Origin: Fimbriimonadaceae bacterium | GTDB taxonomy: Bacteria; Armatimonadota; Fimbriimonadia; Fimbriimonadales; Fimbriimonadaceae | Assembly (NCBI GenBank): GCA_019454125.1 | Contig: CP075365.1 | Coordinates: forward strand, 2,164,218 to 2,228,217 | Length of the DNA: 64,000 nt | Reading direction: 5' to 3' | Shown: positions 1,289 through 63,325 of the stretch, in pieces | How the letters are laid out: each line of letters starts with the position of its first letter | How positions within the stretch are numbered: the first letter of the stretch is position 1 | Program-made: the position numbers and the translations under genes | The notes under the pieces: generated by a model | The model's database searches: none | What the model was told of the DNA's origin: nothing | The model's input: only the letters and a program-made list of their open reading frames with translations

Positions 1289-1818
1289 TGACGAGCGAGA
1301 CCCTTCGGATGGAGACCCTGATCGGTGCGGACGACCTTGCCCGGCGGTGCCGCGAGCTCGCGCAGGAGATCGACGAGGTTTATGCGGGAGAGCCGGTCGT
1401 CCTGATCGCCGTGCTGAACGGGGCGTTCGTCTTCGTGGCGGACCTGGTGCGGCATATGCAGACCCCCCTCACGGTCGATTTCGTGCAGATCGGGACATAC
1501 GCCGACCGGACGGAGTCCAGCGGGGTCTTCCGGTTCAAGAAGGACCACGAGACCAATATCGAGGGGCGGCACGTGCTGGTGGTGGAGGACATCGTCGACA
1601 CGGGCCATACGCTCAGCCGGCTCACCGAGCTCCTCAGGACGCGCCAGCCCAAATCCCTGCGGGTCGCGACGATGCTGGACAAGCCTTCCCGCCGGGCCCA
1701 CGAGGCCCTAGTGGATTTCGTCGGGTTCGAGGTCCCCGACGTCTTTGTGGTAGGATACGGTTTGGATTACGCGGAAAGGTTTCGTAACCTTCCTCATGTA
1801 GCCGTCCTGGGCTTTTGA
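1288..1818 (+). CDS. hpt: Hypoxanthine phosphoribosyltransferase
   Basis: Purine salvage enzyme that joins hypoxanthine or guanine to PRPP, giving IMP or GMP. The 176-residue protein has the PRPP-binding loop (LVVEDIVDTGHT, about residues 97-108) with its acidic pair, and the conserved VLNGAFVF flexible-loop region near 42-50. The ATG at 1288 shares bases with the pgk TGA (ATGA), which fixes the start. An in-frame opening further upstream at 1126 lies inside pgk and is not needed for the family fold. An aromatic C-terminal VGYGLDYAERFRNLP segment is typical of the family. Confidence 0.95.
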   Translation: MTSETLRMETLIGADDLARRCRELAQEIDEVYAGEPVVLIAVLNGAFVFVADLVRHMQTPLTVDFVQIGTYADRTESSGVFRFKKDHETNIEGRHVLVVEDIVDTGHTLSRLTELLRTRQPKSLRVATMLDKPSRRAHEALVDFVGFEVPDVFVVGYGLDYAERFRNLPHVAVLGF

Positions 1819-1915
1819 GCTTCCTGCCCAACTCCCCAGTTCTCCATCACCAGCTCGGCTTCGTCAGCAACGGCTTTCCGCTTGGCGAGACCACCTACGA
1901 ACGAAACGTCACCGA

Positions 1916-3295
1916 ATGACGCACGTATTCCGACCCCGAAAATCCGAGGCCGGCTCTGGCAAGCGACGCCGCCACCGCGGCCCGCGCGAAGAGCGCCCGG
2001 ACGTCACTAGCGATCTCGAGAACCTTCCCGAAATCGACTACAACCATTTCGACAGAATGTCTCCCACCGAATTGGCGAAGGAGGCCAAGAAGCAGAAGAT
2101 CTCTATCGACCAAGACCGCGCGGACGTCATCGAAGCGCTCTTGGAGAAGGCGAACGCCGAGCACGAGGCGATCTATCGCCGCGGCATTCTAGAGATCCTG
2201 CAAGACGGCTGGGGGTTCTTGCGCCGGCCGAACTACCAGCCTTCCAACGACGACGTCTACGTCAGCCAGTCGCAAGTCAAGCGGTTCGGCCTGAAGGCGG
2301 GCGACACGGTCTATGGCCAGGTGCGCGCGCCAAAGGAAGGCGAGAAGTATTACGCGATGCTGCGCGTGGAGAGCGTGAACGGCTTCGGCAGCCAATCGCC
2401 CGAGATGCTTTCCCGGCGCGATTTTGAGCAGCTCACCCCGCTCTTCCCCGACCGCCGGATGAAGCAGGAGACCGAGCCCGAGAAGATCGTAGGCCGCATC
2501 ATCGACCTGATCGCGCCCATCGGCAAAGGCCAACGCGGCCTCGTCGTCGCCCCGCCGAAGACGGGCAAGACCACGATCCTGAAGTCGATCGCAAACTCGA
2601 TCACCACAAACGAGCCCGACGTCTATTTGATGGTCCTGCTGGTCGACGAGCGCCCGGAAGAGGTCACCGACATGAAGCGGTCCGTAAAGGGCCAGGTGAT
2701 CAGCTCCACCTTCGACGAACCCGCCGAGAACCATATACGCGTCACCGAACTCTGCCTGGAGCAGGCCAAGCGCTTGGTCGAGGCCGGTCGCGACGTCGTC
2801 ATCCTCCTGGACTCGATCACGCGCCTTTCGCGCGCCTCCAACCTCACGATCAACCCGAGCGGGCGCACCCTTTCGGGCGGTCTAGATCCGGCGGCCCTCT
2901 ATCGGCCGCGCCGCTTCTTCGGCGCCGCGCGCAACATCGAAGAAGGGGGCTCGCTCACGATCATCGCCTCAGTCCTCATCGAGACGAACTCGAAGATGGA
3001 CGAAGCGATCTTTGAGGAGCTCAAGGGAACGGGCAACATGGAGATCGTGCTGAACCGCGACCTGGCGGAACGGCGCATCTGGCCCGCCATCGACGTCCGC
3101 TCGTCCTCGACACGCCACGAAGAGGCGCTGTTCGACAAGGGACAGCTGGAGGCGGTCTACCACCTTCACCGCATCCTGGCGAACAGCCAGAACACAGTGG
3201 ACGCGACGGACCAGCTGATCAAGCTGCTCAAGCGGACGCCCACCAACAACATGTTCCTCGAATCGGTGATCGCCAAGACGCGCGCAACCGTTTGA
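1916..3295 (+). CDS. rho: Transcription termination factor Rho
   Basis: Hexameric RNA-dependent ATPase and helicase that ends transcription at Rho-dependent sites. A basic N-terminal tail is followed by the Rho N-terminal helical domain (about 40-80), an OB-fold RNA-binding domain with a DGWGFLR core (about 92-160), and the ATPase domain. The ATPase shows Walker A APPKTGKT near 212-219, Walker B VVILLDSITRL near 294-304, and a conserved ERRIWPAID segment. At 459 residues it is slightly longer than the E. coli protein because of the tail. ATG at 1916 is the first start after the 97-base gap following hpt. Confidence 0.97.
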   Translation: MTHVFRPRKSEAGSGKRRRHRGPREERPDVTSDLENLPEIDYNHFDRMSPTELAKEAKKQKISIDQDRADVIEALLEKANAEHEAIYRRGILEILQDGWGFLRRPNYQPSNDDVYVSQSQVKRFGLKAGDTVYGQVRAPKEGEKYYAMLRVESVNGFGSQSPEMLSRRDFEQLTPLFPDRRMKQETEPEKIVGRIIDLIAPIGKGQRGLVVAPPKTGKTTILKSIANSITTNEPDVYLMVLLVDERPEEVTDMKRSVKGQVISSTFDEPAENHIRVTELCLEQAKRLVEAGRDVVILLDSITRLSRASNLTINPSGRTLSGGLDPAALYRPRRFFGAARNIEEGGSLTIIASVLIETNSKMDEAIFEELKGTGNMEIVLNRDLAERRIWPAIDVRSSSTRHEEALFDKGQLEAVYHLHRILANSQNTVDATDQLIKLLKRTPTNNMFLESVIAKTRATV

Positions 3296-53053: not shown

Positions 53054-53998
53054 CTACTTGACCGAGACGCGCCGCATGGTGGACTTACCCGTCAACCGGA
53101 TCTCGATGTCCGATTCGCCCTCGATGCTCTCAAAGTCGAAGACCACCCCGCCGCTGGACCGGGCGTCCGCCGTGAGCGTCTCCTTCGTCTTCTCGTCCAG
53201 GTCGAAGACGATCGTCGCGGCGAGCCGGAGCTTCAGGGCCTTGAGGTCGCTGTCTTCCCTGCCCATTCCGGAGGACTGCAGCATCCAGGGCAGGGCGTCC
53301 GTGTCCAGGTCGAGCTTGGCCGTCACCCGGTGGATCCTCTTTCCGTTGACGGTTTCCAGGCCGTTATAGGTGTACTCGTAGTCCAGGCGCTGGACGGCCT
53401 GCCGGCCCGTCCCCTTGAGCTCGCGCGGCTGGAAGCCGACCGTCTTGTGCCAGGTGTCCCCCGGCTTCACCGGTTCGATCGGGAGCTTCGGGTTGAGGTC
53501 GAGCGCGGACTCCAGGTTGCCCCCGAAGATCGCCAACATTTGGATCTCTCGGAACATCCGTTCGAACCCGGGCGGCTCTTGCCCACCGAAGACTCCGGAG
53601 AGCGGCACCGCCGCCAGCGACGCCTGGCGCGCAGCCTTCGACTCCTTAATGTCCGTGACCTCGTTTATCGGCGAAAGGGTGAAGACAAAGTTCCAATCGA
53701 CCTTTTCAGTCGTGGCCCTGGGCGGGTGGTCCGCCGTCTCTCCTTCCGTGATCTTCATCGCAGGACGCTTATAGGAGACAGTTGAAAATCCCTCGGCCTT
53801 GGCCGTTGCGTGATTCACCGAAAAGTCATAGTCGACGTTCACTTCCGAAGGTAGAAAATACGCCATCGGATAGACCTTCACTTCCGAAAGAAGGTGCGAC
53901 CGCACCTGGAAAGACGACGACGCACCAGGAGTGAATTGCCGATAAAGCTCGACCTCGGCGTCTTGGCCGAGGACGAGCAACGCGATCAGGGAAACCAC
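53054..53998 (-). CDS. Unrecognised secreted protein (DUF6263-like)
   Basis: 314 residues with a short signal peptide (about 1-11, VSLIALLVLG-Q) and a beta-rich mature chain; the pattern YRQFTPGASSSFQVRSHLL, KPGDTWHKT and YEYTYNGLETVNGKRIHRVTAKLD resembles DUF6263-type proteins but identity is not sure. It ends 11 bases before the GT39-like gene and starts 15 bases after the acyl-CoA dehydrogenase stop, so the three lie in one run. The signal may be longer if an upstream start is used. Confidence 0.55.
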   Translation of the reverse strand: MVSLIALLVLGQDAEVELYRQFTPGASSSFQVRSHLLSEVKVYPMAYFLPSEVNVDYDFSVNHATAKAEGFSTVSYKRPAMKITEGETADHPPRATTEKVDWNFVFTLSPINEVTDIKESKAARQASLAAVPLSGVFGGQEPPGFERMFREIQMLAIFGGNLESALDLNPKLPIEPVKPGDTWHKTVGFQPRELKGTGRQAVQRLDYEYTYNGLETVNGKRIHRVTAKLDLDTDALPWMLQSSGMGREDSDLKALKLRLAATIVFDLDEKTKETLTADARSSGGVVFDFESIEGESDIEIRLTGKSTMRRVSVK

Positions 53999-54013: not shown

Positions 54014-55147
54014 TCAGCGGGTCACTTGCTTCGCAATGACCATCCTTTGGATCTCGCTGCAGCCTTCGCCGATCTCGGTGAGCTTAGCGTCCCGCCAGAG
54101 CTTCTCGACCAGGTAATCGTAGGTCATGCCCCGGCCCCCGTGGATCTGGATCGCGCGGTTCGTGACCCGGTTGGCAGTCTCGCTGGCGTAGAGCTTCGCC
54201 ATGCTCGCCTCCTTGACCACCGGTTCGCCCCGGTCGTACTTTTCCGCGCCGTGCCGCAGCAGCAGGCGGGCCGCGTTGACCTCCATCTCGCTGTCCGCGA
54301 TCATGTTCTGCACGCTCTGCATGTCGCAGAGCCGGCGGTTGAACTGCTCCCGCTGCTTGGAGTACTCCACAGCAAGCTCGTGCGCCTTCTCCGCGATCCC
54401 GAGTGCCATCCCCGCAATCCCGAGCCGCCCGCGGTAAAGGAACCCGATCGCCTCCTCAAAGGTGCAGGGCGTGTGCCAGCCCACCGCATTGTGCATCTCG
54501 AACTGCGAGGTCCAGCTGGCCGAGACGCCGATCGTCGGGATGCGGCCCGTCAACTTAAATCCAGGCTGGTCGGTCTCCATGAAGAAGGCGCTGAGCTCCT
54601 TTTCGCCCGTACGGGCGATGATGATGATCATATCGGCCCGGCCGCCGTTTGTGATGAACATCTTCTCGCCGTTCAGGTGGTAAAAGCCCGGCCGGCCCTC
54701 GATCGGGGTGGCGCTCGTCTTCACCCTGCGGGCGTCCGACCCGGCGTCCGGCTCGGTCAAGCCCCAGGCCAGTTCCATCTCGCCCTTCAGCGCGCTGGGA
54801 AGGTACTTTTCACGTTGCTCGTCCGTGCTGAGGCTCACCAGGTGCGCCAGACAGAGCGCGTTGATCGCCGCCACGTTCATCGAGAGGGCTGGGTCGCCTT
54901 GGGCCAAGAGACGGCACGCCTCGGTATAGGCCACACAAGAGTTCCCTCCACCACCCAGCTCGCGCGGAACGGTCATTCCCATCAGTCCGACCTCGGCGCA
55001 CCGCTTGAACACGTCGTCGGGCAGCTTGTCCTTCTCCCATTCGCGGGTGTTGGGAAGGACATATTCGTCGACGAAGCGGCGCACACCTTCGAGGAACTTG
55101 GCCTCGGGCTCGGACATCGGGGAACTCGGGGGGAACTCAGCGATCAC
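54014..55147 (-). CDS. Acyl-CoA dehydrogenase (short/medium-chain type)
   Basis: 377-residue FAD enzyme. Motifs: WGLTEPDAGSDA (about 128-139), GEKMFITNGG, then QIHGGRGMTYDYLVEK and the IGEGCSEIQR ending, in which the usual catalytic Glu is present. The start GTG 55147 has AAGGAG 10 bases before it; ATG 55117 would remove ten residues. It is probably a butyryl- or isovaleryl-type enzyme, but substrate cannot be stated. Divergent from the B12-dependent regulator gene. Confidence 0.9.
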   Translation of the reverse strand: MIAEFPPSSPMSEPEAKFLEGVRRFVDEYVLPNTREWEKDKLPDDVFKRCAEVGLMGMTVPRELGGGGNSCVAYTEACRLLAQGDPALSMNVAAINALCLAHLVSLSTDEQREKYLPSALKGEMELAWGLTEPDAGSDARRVKTSATPIEGRPGFYHLNGEKMFITNGGRADMIIIIARTGEKELSAFFMETDQPGFKLTGRIPTIGVSASWTSQFEMHNAVGWHTPCTFEEAIGFLYRGRLGIAGMALGIAEKAHELAVEYSKQREQFNRRLCDMQSVQNMIADSEMEVNAARLLLRHGAEKYDRGEPVVKEASMAKLYASETANRVTNRAIQIHGGRGMTYDYLVEKLWRDAKLTEIGEGCSEIQRMVIAKQVTR

Positions 55148-55250
55148 AGTGGAAAATCTCCTTGTCTAGCTTGGATTGTACTTCCATATCTTCGGATTGG
55201 CCGGCTGGGTGTTCGCAAGGGCCCGGGAGCCGGTCATAGGTTCGCCGGCA

Positions 55251-55278
55251 CATGAGACGTTCATGTTAGTGATATATT
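55251..55278 (+). promoter_or_regulatory. Operator-like dyad and extended -10 promoter of the B12 regulator
   Basis: CATGA-GACGT-TCATG (55251-55265) is a 5-5-5 dyad. Seven bases later comes TATATT (55273-55278), preceded by TG one base away (55270-55271), an extended -10. The dyad covers the -35 region, so binding would repress transcription; this is the layout expected for autoregulation. Confidence 0.5.
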
Positions 55279-55306
55279 GATGGCGTCCCAACACTGTTTT
55301 AGGCCG

Positions 55307-56215
55307 ATGGCAGACCTGTTCAAGGAAGTTGGCGAACCGTCCCGGCGGGTTCTCCTGGCCCACTTACGGACCGGGCCGAAGAAAGTCGGCGAACTGGTCG
55401 CGCTGACCGGAATGAAGCAGCCGAACGTGAGCAACCACCTGGCGAAGCTGCGGGCGAACGGCGTCGTCCGGGCAACGAAGCTCGGACGGCAGGTCTACTA
55501 TTCTCTGGCGAACGCGGCACTTGTGAACACGCTCACCGGCCTCCTCGGGCCGGACACCACGGCCTTGGAGGACTGCCCCCTCGACACGGCCCAGGTGAAG
55601 ACCTTCGCCAAAGCGGCGGTCCAAGGCGACGAGGCCAGCTGCACCCGCACCGTCGACATCCTGCTCGCGCAAGGCCGAGACATCGCCGAGATCTATCAGA
55701 AGCTCTTTGAACCCGTGATGGTCTTGATCGGCCGGTGGTTCGAGGTCGAGGCGGTGGACGAGGGGCAGGAACACCTCGCGAGCGCGATCATCGAGCGCCT
55801 CATGGCCCGGGCGCTCTTCGGCGTGCCCCCTGCGCAACCTGGTGCGCCGGTCGCCGTGCTCGGTTGCGCGCCCGGGAACTGGCACTCGATCGGCATCCGC
55901 ATGGTGGCGGACATCCTCCGGTCACGCGGCTGGCTGACCCTCTTCCTCGGCGCGAACGTCCCCTCCAAGGCGTTTCTGGCCGCGGTCGAGCACCACCGCC
56001 CCGATGCGGTGATGGTCTCGGCGAACCTCGAAGAGACGCGCACCGAAACCCTCGAATTGGTCCGGAACCTCGCCCAAGCTCAGCAAGGCAAGGTCGCCGT
56101 CGGGGGGAAGGCGGTCGCCGACGCGCGAGAAGAGTTCGCGCTAGCGGGAGCCGACTACGCCGTTTCCAGCTTGGATGAGTTCATCACCCAGGTTTTGCCG
56201 CGTCTCGGACCCTAG
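55307..56215 (+). CDS. ArsR-type HTH fused to a B12-binding sensor (CarH-like)
   Basis: 302 residues. Residues 1-80 form an ArsR winged helix (MADLFKEVGEPSRR, KQPNVSNHLAKLRANGVV). Residues about 95-175 match the helical cap of B12-binding-2 domains, with W144 and the EH pair at 155-156. Residues about 180-300 are a Rossmann B12 domain with NWHSIGIRM (His193) and RGWLTLFLGANVP. In CarH/LitR photoreceptors similar motifs bind adenosylcobalamin and respond to light, but those use a MerR HTH. ATG 55307 gives the typical ArsR start; 55280 is possible. Light sensing is an inference. Confidence 0.85.
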   Translation: MADLFKEVGEPSRRVLLAHLRTGPKKVGELVALTGMKQPNVSNHLAKLRANGVVRATKLGRQVYYSLANAALVNTLTGLLGPDTTALEDCPLDTAQVKTFAKAAVQGDEASCTRTVDILLAQGRDIAEIYQKLFEPVMVLIGRWFEVEAVDEGQEHLASAIIERLMARALFGVPPAQPGAPVAVLGCAPGNWHSIGIRMVADILRSRGWLTLFLGANVPSKAFLAAVEHHRPDAVMVSANLEETRTETLELVRNLAQAQQGKVAVGGKAVADAREEFALAGADYAVSSLDEFITQVLPRLGP

Positions 56216-56304: not shown

Positions 56305-57732
56305 ATGAAACGCTTGCTTCCTGTTCGCCCGCTTTCCGCCGTGCTTCACGCGCTCCCAAGCCAGAACCGAGTGACGTTGGCTATGGGCGCGACCTGTCTA
56401 GCGGCCGCCCTCCTCATCGTGACGTCCCGCGAGGCGCAGTCGCAAGTGGGCGGTGGCTTCCCCGCTTTCGTCCGGCTCCAGACCGGCACCCCCGGCACTG
56501 CGGACGTGGGCAACGCGAACCTCAGCGGCCGCATGATCGCGGGCACTTTCCAAGGGATCGGAACGGACCTGACGAACCTCAATGCCGGAAACATCGGTAC
56601 TGGGACGGTCGCGGACGCCCGCCTGAGCGCGAACGTCATGCTGGTGAACAACGTCCAGACCATCACGGCGGCCAAGACCTTTGCCGTGACCCCGAGCTTC
56701 ACAAGTACGGCCAAGCCCTTCAACGTGTCGTCCGCGACCCTCGTCAACAACCTCAACTCAGACCTCTTCGACGGCTTGAACAGCACCCAGTTCCTCAACA
56801 CGGCGAACCGGCTCACCGTGACCCTGAACCTGGCCGGCACAAGCCTCTTGGAAGCGGTGCAGCAAAGTACGTCGGGCAGCGGCATCGTGGCCCGGAACGT
56901 TGTGCGCGAATCGACGGTCACGCTCGCTGGCCCCCAGGGCGGAGTTGTCTCCAACGTCGGCACCGTCGCGGTCGCCGTCTTCGGCCAGAACGGCTCCTTC
57001 CCACCTATCAATCCGGGCACCCCTGCGATCTTGGGTGCAGGCCCTTCGTTCGGCGTCGTCGGGGTCGGCGGGGGCGGCGGCGTGGCAGGCATCGCCGATT
57101 CGGCCGGCTACGGCGGATATTTCCAAAGTAACGGCCCAAACTCTGTCGCTTTGCGCGCGACGAACATCACGCCGAAGGACGTCGACCCCGCCACGGTCGA
57201 GCTCGGCTCTGACGACGGCGCCGTCTATGTAGAATCGGGCACCGTCACCGAAAAGTACAACTCTGCAGTTTCGGCGGCTGTACCGATCGCATATGGAACG
57301 GTGAACACGGACGGCTCGCGCTTAAGCGGCACCGACAACTGGGCGGCGTCGTACGACGGCACGCGGTACGTCATCTCGATCACCGGTGAGACCTACTTCT
57401 TCGCCAACTATACGACGAACATCACAGCCGTAAACACGAGCACGTTCTTCACCACGACGAACAGCGTCGGTGGCAATCTCCTGGTCTACATCCGGAACAG
57501 TCAGGGCCAAGCGCTGCAACGGGTGTTCCAGTTTATAACATACAAAACGAACCCGGCCGTGAACGTCGCCGCCGCGCCGCGGCACGCCTTCGACGATGAC
57601 TTGACGTGGTTCGAACAGCGGCCCGGAGAGGGCCAGGCGTACCTTCGCCTGTTCGACGCCACGCGAGACCGAATGCCCAGCAAGAAAAACGCGCCAAGCT
57701 TTGGCAAGGGGAGAATCGTCTCAACGCCATGA
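56305..57732 (+). CDS. Surface or fibre-like protein with a duplicated C-terminal module
   Basis: 475 residues. The N-terminus has a signal or anchor (about 20-42). Repeated fibre-like turns follow (LNAGNIGTGTVADARLSANVMLV, about 85-115; LVNNLNSDLFDGLNSTQFLN), similar to phage tail-spike or adhesin stems, then a Gly-rich region near 245. The last 150 residues repeat as the whole of the next gene. ATG 56305 is preferred over the TTG at 56290 because it begins the signal region. Possible surface appendage or phage-derived fibre; uncertain. Confidence 0.6.
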   Translation: MKRLLPVRPLSAVLHALPSQNRVTLAMGATCLAAALLIVTSREAQSQVGGGFPAFVRLQTGTPGTADVGNANLSGRMIAGTFQGIGTDLTNLNAGNIGTGTVADARLSANVMLVNNVQTITAAKTFAVTPSFTSTAKPFNVSSATLVNNLNSDLFDGLNSTQFLNTANRLTVTLNLAGTSLLEAVQQSTSGSGIVARNVVRESTVTLAGPQGGVVSNVGTVAVAVFGQNGSFPPINPGTPAILGAGPSFGVVGVGGGGGVAGIADSAGYGGYFQSNGPNSVALRATNITPKDVDPATVELGSDDGAVYVESGTVTEKYNSAVSAAVPIAYGTVNTDGSRLSGTDNWAASYDGTRYVISITGETYFFANYTTNITAVNTSTFFTTTNSVGGNLLVYIRNSQGQALQRVFQFITYKTNPAVNVAAAPRHAFDDDLTWFEQRPGEGQAYLRLFDATRDRMPSKKNAPSFGKGRIVSTP

Positions 57733-58151
57733 GCACTTCCGCCAACGCCCTGTCCGCCGCTGTGCCGCTCGCCTATGGGACCGTAGCCGCCGACGGATCC
57801 CGCCTCAGCGGCACCACGAATTGGACTTGCACGTATGACGCGGCCACTCAGCGCTACCTGATCTCAATCGACGGCGTCGCCTACTTCATGGCCGACCAGA
57901 CGACGATCGTCACGGCCGTCAACACCAGCACCTTTTTCACGACAGTGAGCAGCTTCGACGGCATGGTGGTCGTCCACGTGCGGAACGGCGACGGCGACCC
58001 CGTCCAAAAAGCCTTCTCGTTCGTCACCTACTGGGCCAACGGCCGGGGCGGCGGGCGTAAGCCGAGCCACGCTTATGGCGACGATTCTGAGTGGGCGGTG
58101 GCCGAGCCCGCCGCCTTCTCGGCGTTCCTGGGGAGTAACTCCGGGGCCTGA
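57729..58151 (+). CDS. Stand-alone copy of the upstream protein's C-terminal module
   Basis: 140 residues, no signal peptide. It aligns over its whole length with the last 150 residues of the preceding protein: SAAVPLAYGT, ADGSRLSGTTNW, TAVNTSTFFTT and a DDSEW segment match closely. ATG 57729 overlaps the upstream stop (ATGA), so both are made from one message. A stop-containing hairpin follows. It looks like a duplicated domain turned into a second subunit. Domain function unknown. Confidence 0.72.
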   Translation: MSTSANALSAAVPLAYGTVAADGSRLSGTTNWTCTYDAATQRYLISIDGVAYFMADQTTIVTAVNTSTFFTTVSSFDGMVVVHVRNGDGDPVQKAFSFVTYWANGRGGGRKPSHAYGDDSEWAVAEPAAFSAFLGSNSGA

Positions 58152-61171: not shown

Positions 61172-63325
61172 ATGGTCGCGCAGCCACAAAACGTTCTCGT
61201 CATCGGGGCCGGCACGATGGGGAGCGGTATCGCTGCCCATCTCGCCAACCTCGGCTTTTCGGTCAGTTTGCTCGACGTCTCACCGGACTCAGTCCGGCAC
61301 GCGTTCGACCGGGCCAAGAAAGCCCGACCGCCCCACTTCTATGTTCCGGGCACCGCCGAAAACGTCCGGCTCGGCTCCTTTGAGGCGGACCTCCAGTGGG
61401 TCGGCGAAGCGGACTGGGTTTGTGAGGCCATCGTCGAAAAACTCGATGCCAAGAGGGGCCTTTTCGCCCTTGTCGAGCCCCTGCTTCGCGAGGACGCCTT
61501 TATCTCGACCAACACCAGCGGCCTGCAGATCGAGCTCCTCGCGGAAGGGCGCGGCGAATCGTTCCGCAAACGCTTTCTCGGCACCCACTTTTTCAACCCG
61601 CCCCGCTATCTCAAGCTCCTAGAGCTGATCCCGACCGCCGACACCGACCCCGATGTGGTGCGCGCGATGTCGGTCGTCCTGGAGCGCGACTGCGCACGCC
61701 GCGTCGTCCTCGCGAAGGACACGCCAGGGTTCATTGCGAACCGGTTCGGAATGTGGTCCATGTTCCTCGCCACCCACGTCGCTGAAAAGCTGGGCCTCTC
61801 GATCGAACAGGTCGACCTCGTCACGGGCCCCCTGATCGGTCGGCCCCGGTCCGGGTCCTTCCGCCTGAACGACCTGGTCGGGCTGGACGTGATGGACGAC
61901 ATCGCCCGCAACCTCATCGCACGGTGCCCCGACGATCCCCACACGGACGTGCTACACCCGCCCCGCTCGCTCGCCTTCCTCCTGGAAAAAGGCTGGATCG
62001 GCGAGAAGGTCGGCCAAGGCTACTACCGCCGCGAGGGCCGCGAACTGATGTCCCTCGACCTCACCACGCTCGCCTATCGGGTGCGGCAGGAACCGGGCAT
62101 CTCCAGCGTCGCCGCTCTTTCTAAGAGGCCGCTTGCCGAGCGCCTCTGCGAAGGGCTCAAGCTTCGCGACGAGGCGGGCGAGTTCCTCCGCGCCTACCTC
62201 CCCCGCACGCTCGACTATGCGGACTCACTGAAGGAGGAGGTCAGCCACAACGTGGAGGACTTCGACCGCGTGATGAAGTGGGGCTTTGGCTGGGAGGCAG
62301 GCCCCTTCGAAATGATGGATATGGTGGACCATCGCCCCCAGAAGTTCTACGTTGGAGGCGAAATGCGAGGGTTCGACGGCTCCATGAAGAGCCGGCCGGA
62401 AGAGCCCGAGTACCGCACCTTCAAAGACTATCCGGTCATTGAACAGCGCGAAGGCTTCAATGTGCGCGATATGGGCGACGGGGTCACGCTCATCGGGATC
62501 ACGAACAAGATGGGCGTTTTTTCGCCCGCGGTCGTGCGCTCGCTCAAGTCGTTCCTCAACGATAAGACCGCGCAGAGGATCGTGCTCACCAGCGAGCAGC
62601 GCGCCTTCTCCGCCGGCTTCGACCTCCAGTTCATCCTCGACGCCGTGAACGAGGGCAGATATGCGGACGTCAACGCGGCCCTGGTCGACCTCCAGCAGTT
62701 GGGCGTCTTGCTCTCCCAAGTCCCCTCTGTCGCGGCCGTCTTCGGTTTCTGCCTTGGCGGCGGGTATGAGATGGCGACGTCCTGCTCCATCGTGGCCGCC
62801 CACCCGGAGACCCAGATCGGGCTCCCGGAGGCGAAGGTCGGCCTGGTACCCGGCGGGGGTGGGGTCGCCATGATGCGGCTCCGGTTCCAGCAGAGCGCCA
62901 AGAACCTGGTCGAGGCGGCCCGGCTCCTCACCCTCGGCGTCGTCGCCACGAACGCGGACGAGGCCCGCCATCTGGGTTATCTCCGCGAGGGCGACATCAC
63001 CGTCTATAACGGAGACCGCCTTCTCACCGAGGCCAAGCGCCTTGCCCTGCAGGCGGTGGCGCATCCGAGGCAGGAGTGGGCGGCCGTGGCCGGCCCCGTC
63101 AGCGGCATGATCGACCAGATGCTCGACAACCTGCAAAAGGCCGGCGAGATCAGCGAACACGACCACAACATCGGGGACCGTGCCAAGCACGTGCTCGTGA
63201 AGTCCACCTCGTTCGAGAACGCGCTCGACAACGAGCGGAAGGCCTTCGACGAACTGCTGAAAGAGGGCCTCACGGTCGCCCGAATCAAGCACATGCTCGA
63301 CACGGGCAAACCGCTGCGAAACTAG
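61172..63325 (+). CDS. fadN: FadN-type 3-hydroxyacyl-CoA dehydrogenase / enoyl-CoA hydratase
   Basis: Multifunctional beta-oxidation enzyme, 717 residues. The dehydrogenase is N-terminal (NAD motif VIGAGTMGSGIAAHLANLG, 10-28; THFFNPPRYLKLLE, about 138-151) and the hydratase-like domain is C-terminal (about 425-717; GFCLGGGYEMA and GLPEAKVGLVPGGGG with a catalytic-type Glu). This order is as in B. subtilis FadN and not E. coli FadB. A GGGCC/GGCCC hairpin lies just before ATG 61172. With the two acyl-CoA dehydrogenases it supplies fatty-acid breakdown; no thiolase gene is in the window. Confidence 0.93.
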   Translation: MVAQPQNVLVIGAGTMGSGIAAHLANLGFSVSLLDVSPDSVRHAFDRAKKARPPHFYVPGTAENVRLGSFEADLQWVGEADWVCEAIVEKLDAKRGLFALVEPLLREDAFISTNTSGLQIELLAEGRGESFRKRFLGTHFFNPPRYLKLLELIPTADTDPDVVRAMSVVLERDCARRVVLAKDTPGFIANRFGMWSMFLATHVAEKLGLSIEQVDLVTGPLIGRPRSGSFRLNDLVGLDVMDDIARNLIARCPDDPHTDVLHPPRSLAFLLEKGWIGEKVGQGYYRREGRELMSLDLTTLAYRVRQEPGISSVAALSKRPLAERLCEGLKLRDEAGEFLRAYLPRTLDYADSLKEEVSHNVEDFDRVMKWGFGWEAGPFEMMDMVDHRPQKFYVGGEMRGFDGSMKSRPEEPEYRTFKDYPVIEQREGFNVRDMGDGVTLIGITNKMGVFSPAVVRSLKSFLNDKTAQRIVLTSEQRAFSAGFDLQFILDAVNEGRYADVNAALVDLQQLGVLLSQVPSVAAVFGFCLGGGYEMATSCSIVAAHPETQIGLPEAKVGLVPGGGGVAMMRLRFQQSAKNLVEAARLLTLGVVATNADEARHLGYLREGDITVYNGDRLLTEAKRLALQAVAHPRQEWAAVAGPVSGMIDQMLDNLQKAGEISEHDHNIGDRAKHVLVKSTSFENALDNERKAFDELLKEGLTVARIKHMLDTGKPLRN

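Follow-up and report, generated by a model that had tools for sequence, protein, structure and literature searches.

Which signal is read by a regulator that combines an ArsR-type DNA-binding domain with a vitamin B12 sensor, and which genes does it control? Work on CarH-type sensors has mostly concerned those carried by MerR helices that control photoprotection, and the ArsR scaffold usually senses metals via its own dimer interface, so that in a protein joining the two the B12 signal must take a different route to the DNA. Such a protein is encoded in the stretch of 64,000 nucleotides of a Fimbriimonadaceae bacterium that was analysed here as a whole (the window), where one gene is an ArsR helix-turn-helix joined to a CarH/MetH-type cobalamin-binding domain (CBD). 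The fusion had already been proposed in a first-pass annotation, and it is borne out by the domain matches, by a family spread over 43 genomes, by an AlphaFold2 model built from a 33-row alignment (pLDDT 93) and by the nearest known structures, which are B12 photoreceptors.

Domain layout and distribution of the regulator

Read from its first ATG, the regulator frame extends over 55280-56215 on the plus strand (311 amino acids, stop codon at 56213-56215). The winged helix-turn-helix lies at 55337-55471 (+; residues 20-64; HTH_5/PF01022, E 9e-11, 41.9 bits against a Pfam cut-off of 22). It is followed by the two parts of the CBD, both matched above the Pfam cut-offs, namely the helical bundle with the adenosyl pocket at 55598-55810 (+; residues 107-177; B12-binding_2/PF02607, E 1e-9, 38.7 bits) and the Rossmann domain at 55853-56164 (+; residues 192-295; B12-binding/PF02310, E 2e-19, 70.3 bits). 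The first ATG (55280) sits 5' of the start point implied by a putative extended -10 element (approximately 55285), and homology to the relatives begins only at Met10 (ATG 55307), which is a Met in 23 of 33 members. Therefore, translation probably starts at ATG 55307 and yields a protein of 302 amino acids.

The nearest solved ArsR protein by sequence is CmtR (2JSC, E 2e-9), whose metal ligands we take to be Cys57 and Cys61. By the gapless offset of this match, the two positions correspond to Lys56 and Asn60 of the regulator; among the 33 members the first is always Lys or Arg and the second mainly Lys or Arg, with Cys at neither. Moreover, there is no CxC in alpha-3, and the almost invariant Cys residues of the family are all located in the CBD. 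The NCBIfam model HTH_metalloreg/NF033788 nevertheless matches with 72.7 bits against a cut-off of 55, and automatic annotation would thus misname the protein as a metalloregulator. That it is a metal-sensing ArsR/SmtB regulator is hardly credible, and this assignment was rejected due to the missing ligands. Membership in CarH was rejected as well, since the DNA-binding domain is ArsR instead of MerR, the CarH motif Wx9EH reads Fx9EH and the second His of CarH (His132) is missing; the CarH model reaches 49.5 bits, over the CBD part only, against a cut-off of 400. In the recognition region (MKQPNVSNHLAKLR), which is almost invariant, Q47, P48, N49, S51, H53 and L54 are identical throughout the family alignment, and a similar operator is therefore expected across the family.

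Of the 85 genomes that represent its bacterial family, 43 carry the regulator, always as a single copy, and these cover 19 of 32 genera; one of the 43 copies is partial at a contig end, and full-length matches outside the window genome show 36-58% identity. Named relatives carrying the ArsR-CBD fusion belong to the Fimbriimonadaceae and to other Armatimonadota, e.g., Chthonomonadales, and when 255 genomes of the phylum were searched with a profile, other Armatimonadota families yielded additional full-length members that are more divergent. A scan of genome contigs by short exact peptide patterns, which could miss fusions, revealed none outside the Armatimonadota; the matches in other phyla were B12 domains, mostly with MerR or a long N-terminus lacking a helix-turn-helix, or lone ArsR domains. 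With the single regulator protein as query the contig scan gave no match, whereas the alignment-based scan recovered the family. In a tree of the CBDs, the domains borne by ArsR in Fimbriimonadaceae and Chthonomonadales cluster together and apart from the MerR forms, with low support for the deep branches. As candidates for a replacement of the ArsR form, CarH-like MerR proteins occur in 4 of 43 genomes with and in 9 of 42 without the regulator (p 0.14). Several single proteins are also worth recording. The frame at approximately 1405-2343 (reverse complement) of L017 (genome G034, same order) combines a CarH-like CBD, in which LWH and EH are intact, with an XRE/Cro-type helix-turn-helix at the C-terminus, another unusual architecture of a B12-domain regulator. 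L191 (genome G151) and L192 (genome G192) are distant ArsR-CBD proteins of other Armatimonadota families, the former without the axial His and the latter with a CarH-like GELW but without GxxxP. L107 (6001-6894, genome G047) has an intact ArsR helix-turn-helix and a CBD without EH and axial His; the orthologous acyl-CoA dehydrogenase was not found in this genome, which is a single case.

Cobalamin pocket and light signature

Among 33 aligned members with identities down to 37%, E164, H165, H202, G205, G224, P228 and GG275-276 are invariant. The best structural matches of the CBD model (Foldseek, VIA) are the photocobilins (Z 26.4), the CBD of CtMerR (Z 23.5) and CarH (Z 21.4). The regulator very probably binds cobalamin.

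The light signature of B12 photoreceptors described with SignatureFinder consists of GxxW, the Trp of which stacks on the adenosyl group, EH, the Glu of which hydrogen-bonds the adenosyl group, GxxH with the axial His, and GxxxP, which provides a contact from the neighbouring subunit (PMC11796333). In the regulator these elements read GRWF, EH, GNWH and GANVP, i.e., three of the four are present, and the complete signature is found in 7 of 33 members. EH (E164-H165) and GxxxP (G224-P228) occur in all 33; in GxxH (G199-H202) the His is likewise found in 33/33 and the Gly in 19/33. The deviating element is GxxW, which begins with Gly151, ends in Phe154 here and is present in nine relatives. The position of CarH Trp131 is always aromatic (Tyr in 22, Trp in nine and Phe in two members), and an intact Wx9EH remains in 9/33. 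Directly before it lies an additional Trp153, conserved in 31/33. The first-pass annotation had stated that a Trp, the EH pair and the His of the NWHSIG motif are retained, which holds for the invariant EH pair and His202, but the Trp that it named is the extra residue Trp153, and the CarH Trp131 position is Phe154. It had also counted one residue more between Trp and EH than in the Thermus protein. Since the segment aligns without gaps with CarH-type proteins, there is no insertion, the spacing is unchanged and Trp153 is simply additional.

Of the lower-ligand motif of CarH (D/E-x-H-x2-G...S...GG), the regulator has H202 and G205 within GNWHSIG (residues 199-205), S247 and GG275-276. The D/E, two positions ahead of the axial His, is replaced by Asn200, and all 33 members have Asn or Ser there. 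The position of CarH His132, which serves the bis-His light state (PMC10442372), is occupied by Glu155 and is a His in none of the 33 members. However, this position is also no His in proven photoreceptors, being Arg in CtMerR, Gln in SasPcob and Tyr in AbDPcob (PMC11796333), and Glu155 thus leaves photochemistry possible. Pro228 gains importance because the matching Pro of CtMerR touches the AdoCbl of the neighbouring subunit (PMC11796333), and its conservation hints at AdoCbl-linked oligomerisation.

Putative promoters, candidate operator and the divergent acyl-CoA dehydrogenase

The intergenic region at 55115-55306 presumably contains both divergent promoters. On the side of the regulator, a putative extended -10 element, TGATATATT, can be read at 55270-55278 (+); it is not among the sites reported by a sigma-70 scan. 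On the other side, an AGTAnAAT element is conserved, represented by ATTGTACTT near 55177 in the window, and looks like the -10 of the dehydrogenase gene. Beside the extended -10 lies the dyad ACATGA-GACGT-TCATGT (55250-55266), which had been put forward earlier, with the core CATGA-N5-TCATG, as the operator of the regulator. It is indeed present, and it occurs only once in the 2.65-Mb genome; the search for further copies that had been proposed along with it therefore ended with this single exact site. No copy of the exact dyad was found among 33 other upstream regions of relatives. Perfect inverted repeats with 6-bp arms arise in 46% of shuffles of the window's intergenic region with a spacer of up to 20, and with a spacer of up to 8 in 26% of these shuffles; if only the promoter of 43 nt is considered, the figure is 5%. 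Taken alone the dyad is near chance and weak evidence.

Footprinting over 34 intergenic regions, in which the kinship of the species was uncontrolled, revealed a palindrome cATCA-N8-TGATg near the regulator promoter in relatives, with a log-likelihood of 66 against at most 42 in dinucleotide shuffles for width 18, and of 104 against at most 53 for width 24. When a palindrome model was trained on 31 relatives, with the window gene and its two nearest relatives left out, its best intergenic site fell at 55251 (55251-55268, rank 3 in 64 kb) and so overlaps the dyad, although a score above 9 bits is reached by just 18 of the 31 loci used for training and the strict width-24 model scores poorly at the window's intergenic region. 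As the leave-out model of the relatives picks the same site, a candidate operator at 55250-55268, either as N5 dyad or as N8 half-sites, is supported beyond the dyad alone, and autorepression of the regulator at this site is plausible.

The most informative neighbour, which the first-pass annotation did not mention, is a divergent acyl-CoA dehydrogenase gene at 54014 to about 55117 on the minus strand, read from Ser-Glu-Pro (55114) with a likely ATG start in the codon before. It stands head-to-head with the regulator, within approximately 1 kb, in at least 31 of the 43 regulator genomes (complete matches, whole-genome positions), usually with a gap of 90-320 nt, and in three more genomes a truncated dehydrogenase copy lies beside the regulator at a contig end. 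The dehydrogenase is likely to be the main regulatory target. It is single-copy at the threshold used and present in 74 of 85 family genomes, with or without the regulator, so that it can do without the regulator and resembles a core enzyme of beta-oxidation that was later brought under this control. ArsR-CBD members outside the family do not lie beside the dehydrogenase and have diverse neighbours. Located 3' of the dehydrogenase is a gene for an uncharacterised 314-aa protein (53054-53998, -) without a Pfam family, which keeps its order in most relatives and is a possible partner in lipid metabolism, and a FadB-like protein (61172-63325) is frequently encoded nearby in relatives. The adjacent proteins at 56305-57732 and 57606-58148 (+) have a repeated C-terminal domain in common (AYGTV..DGSRLSGT.NW), with no Pfam match.

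Possible signals and comparison with known systems

We propose, with a probability of about 0.5, that the regulator is an AdoCbl-dependent repressor of itself and of the divergent dehydrogenase, where the binding of cobalamin, the specificity for AdoCbl, the sign of the regulation and the target are all inferred. Combining an ArsR winged helix without metal sites with a CarH-type B12-binding domain, the protein would act as a cobalamin-responsive repressor, a dimer of which, held together via the ArsR domain, would sit on the inverted repeat over its own promoter. AdoCbl would be bound in the CBD with His202 below and with Glu164-His165 and an aromatic residue above, and might steady the contacts between the CBDs, including Pro228 from the neighbouring subunit, and in this way allow DNA binding. 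When AdoCbl is absent, or perhaps when its Co-C bond is broken by light, the repressor would let go, which would free the regulator gene as well as the acyl-CoA dehydrogenase gene and raise the capacity for beta-oxidation. That light relieves the repression, as had been suggested before, is conceivable at somewhat less than an even chance. Against an AdoCbl-dependent repressor stand Phe154, Asn200, the Glu at the position of His132, the exact dyad that is not conserved, the near-universal occurrence of the dehydrogenase, also in genomes without the regulator, and its absence beside the members from outside the family.

The regulator could be a full light sensor in the sense of CarH, AdoCbl-bound in the dark and off the DNA under green light. 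This is possible, yet falls short of even odds: the nearest structures are B12 photoreceptors, Phe for Trp is the one deviation from the signature that some members have entirely, and CtMerR, SasPcob and AbDPcob also manage without the second His (PMC11796333), but Wx9EH is intact in just nine members, the best-linked gene is metabolic, and no linkage of the regulator to genes for photoprotection, carotenoids or photolyase was found. A metabolic target fits a sensor of B12 supply that does not depend on light, in which the level of AdoCbl or another corrinoid sets fatty-acid breakdown, e.g., matching it to the disposal of propionyl-CoA by methylmalonyl-CoA mutase; we regard this as tentative and rather doubtful. 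The window genome encodes a cobalamin adenosyltransferase, which is present in all family genomes of at least 90% completeness, and a class II, AdoCbl-dependent ribonucleotide reductase, and the mutase accompanies the regulator above expectation (16 of 43 genomes with against 5 of 42 without it, Fisher p 0.011, ignoring relatedness). However, the window genome has no mutase, as is the case for 26 of the remaining 42 genomes with the regulator, and 62 of 85 family genomes already have cobalamin riboswitches for B12 supply, with no riboswitch match in the window genome. The only PF02310 proteins of this genome are the regulator and a 563-aa frame. Its class II ribonucleotide reductase (G000:C1:2074685-2077063; L182, L183) appears as two match pieces in one 1226-aa frame, which suggests an insertion or extension.

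The CBD could also be a structural relic or bind another ligand, as in the B12-independent CarA, leaving an ordinary ArsR-type repressor with another signal. Phe154 and Asn200 differ from the CarH motifs, and L107 has lost EH and axial His yet kept its helix-turn-helix, as L191 has lost the axial His; such losses are exceptional in the family, and a relic would lose the pocket residues that 33 divergent members have all retained. This explanation is therefore improbable. The AdoCbl-dependent repressor could in its widest form represent phylum-specific B12 photoreceptor-repressors, with an ArsR scaffold re-wired to AdoCbl, an entry step of beta-oxidation controlled by light or AdoCbl, and a Tyr/Phe-plus-Trp adenosyl pocket undescribed in CarH, although we consider this whole combination unlikely. 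The conserved head-to-head pair suggests that in Fimbriimonadaceae the oxidation of fat is linked to B12 and perhaps to light, and the natural variation of Trp, Tyr and Phe at the adenosyl-stacking position offers ready test cases for the photoactivity of B12 domains.

No report on an ArsR-B12 fusion regulator was found in the open literature searched, and since SignatureFinder gives unspecified helix-turn-helix outputs, its network may already contain such fusions without a label. With CmtR and other ArsR/SmtB proteins (2JSC) the regulator has the winged helix-turn-helix in common, but it lacks the metal ligands and carries a C-terminal CBD. The SCHIC domains of AerR and AppA (7TE2, 4HEH) have the regulatory CBD fold in common with it, but their chain includes no domain for DNA binding, and they act on PpsR/CrtJ. 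CtMerR of Chloracidobacterium (8JBS/8JBT; PMC11796333) and the photocobilins (8J2W/8J2Y; PMC10979010) are the best structural matches of the CBD and are also devoid of CarH His132, but have the Trp in GxxW and MerR or bilin-globin/GGDEF outputs. CarH/LitR (TtCarH, 5C8D) resembles the regulator in the CBD fold (Z 21.4, 23% identity), the axial His, EH, GxxxP and the one-component layout of helix-turn-helix and CBD. In contrast to CarH/LitR, the regulator uses an ArsR winged helix instead of MerR and is linked to an acyl-CoA dehydrogenase instead of carotenoid genes, and its family has mostly Phe or Tyr at the Trp131 position, preceded by an extra Trp, lacks His132, and has Asn or Ser for the Asp or Glu before the axial His.
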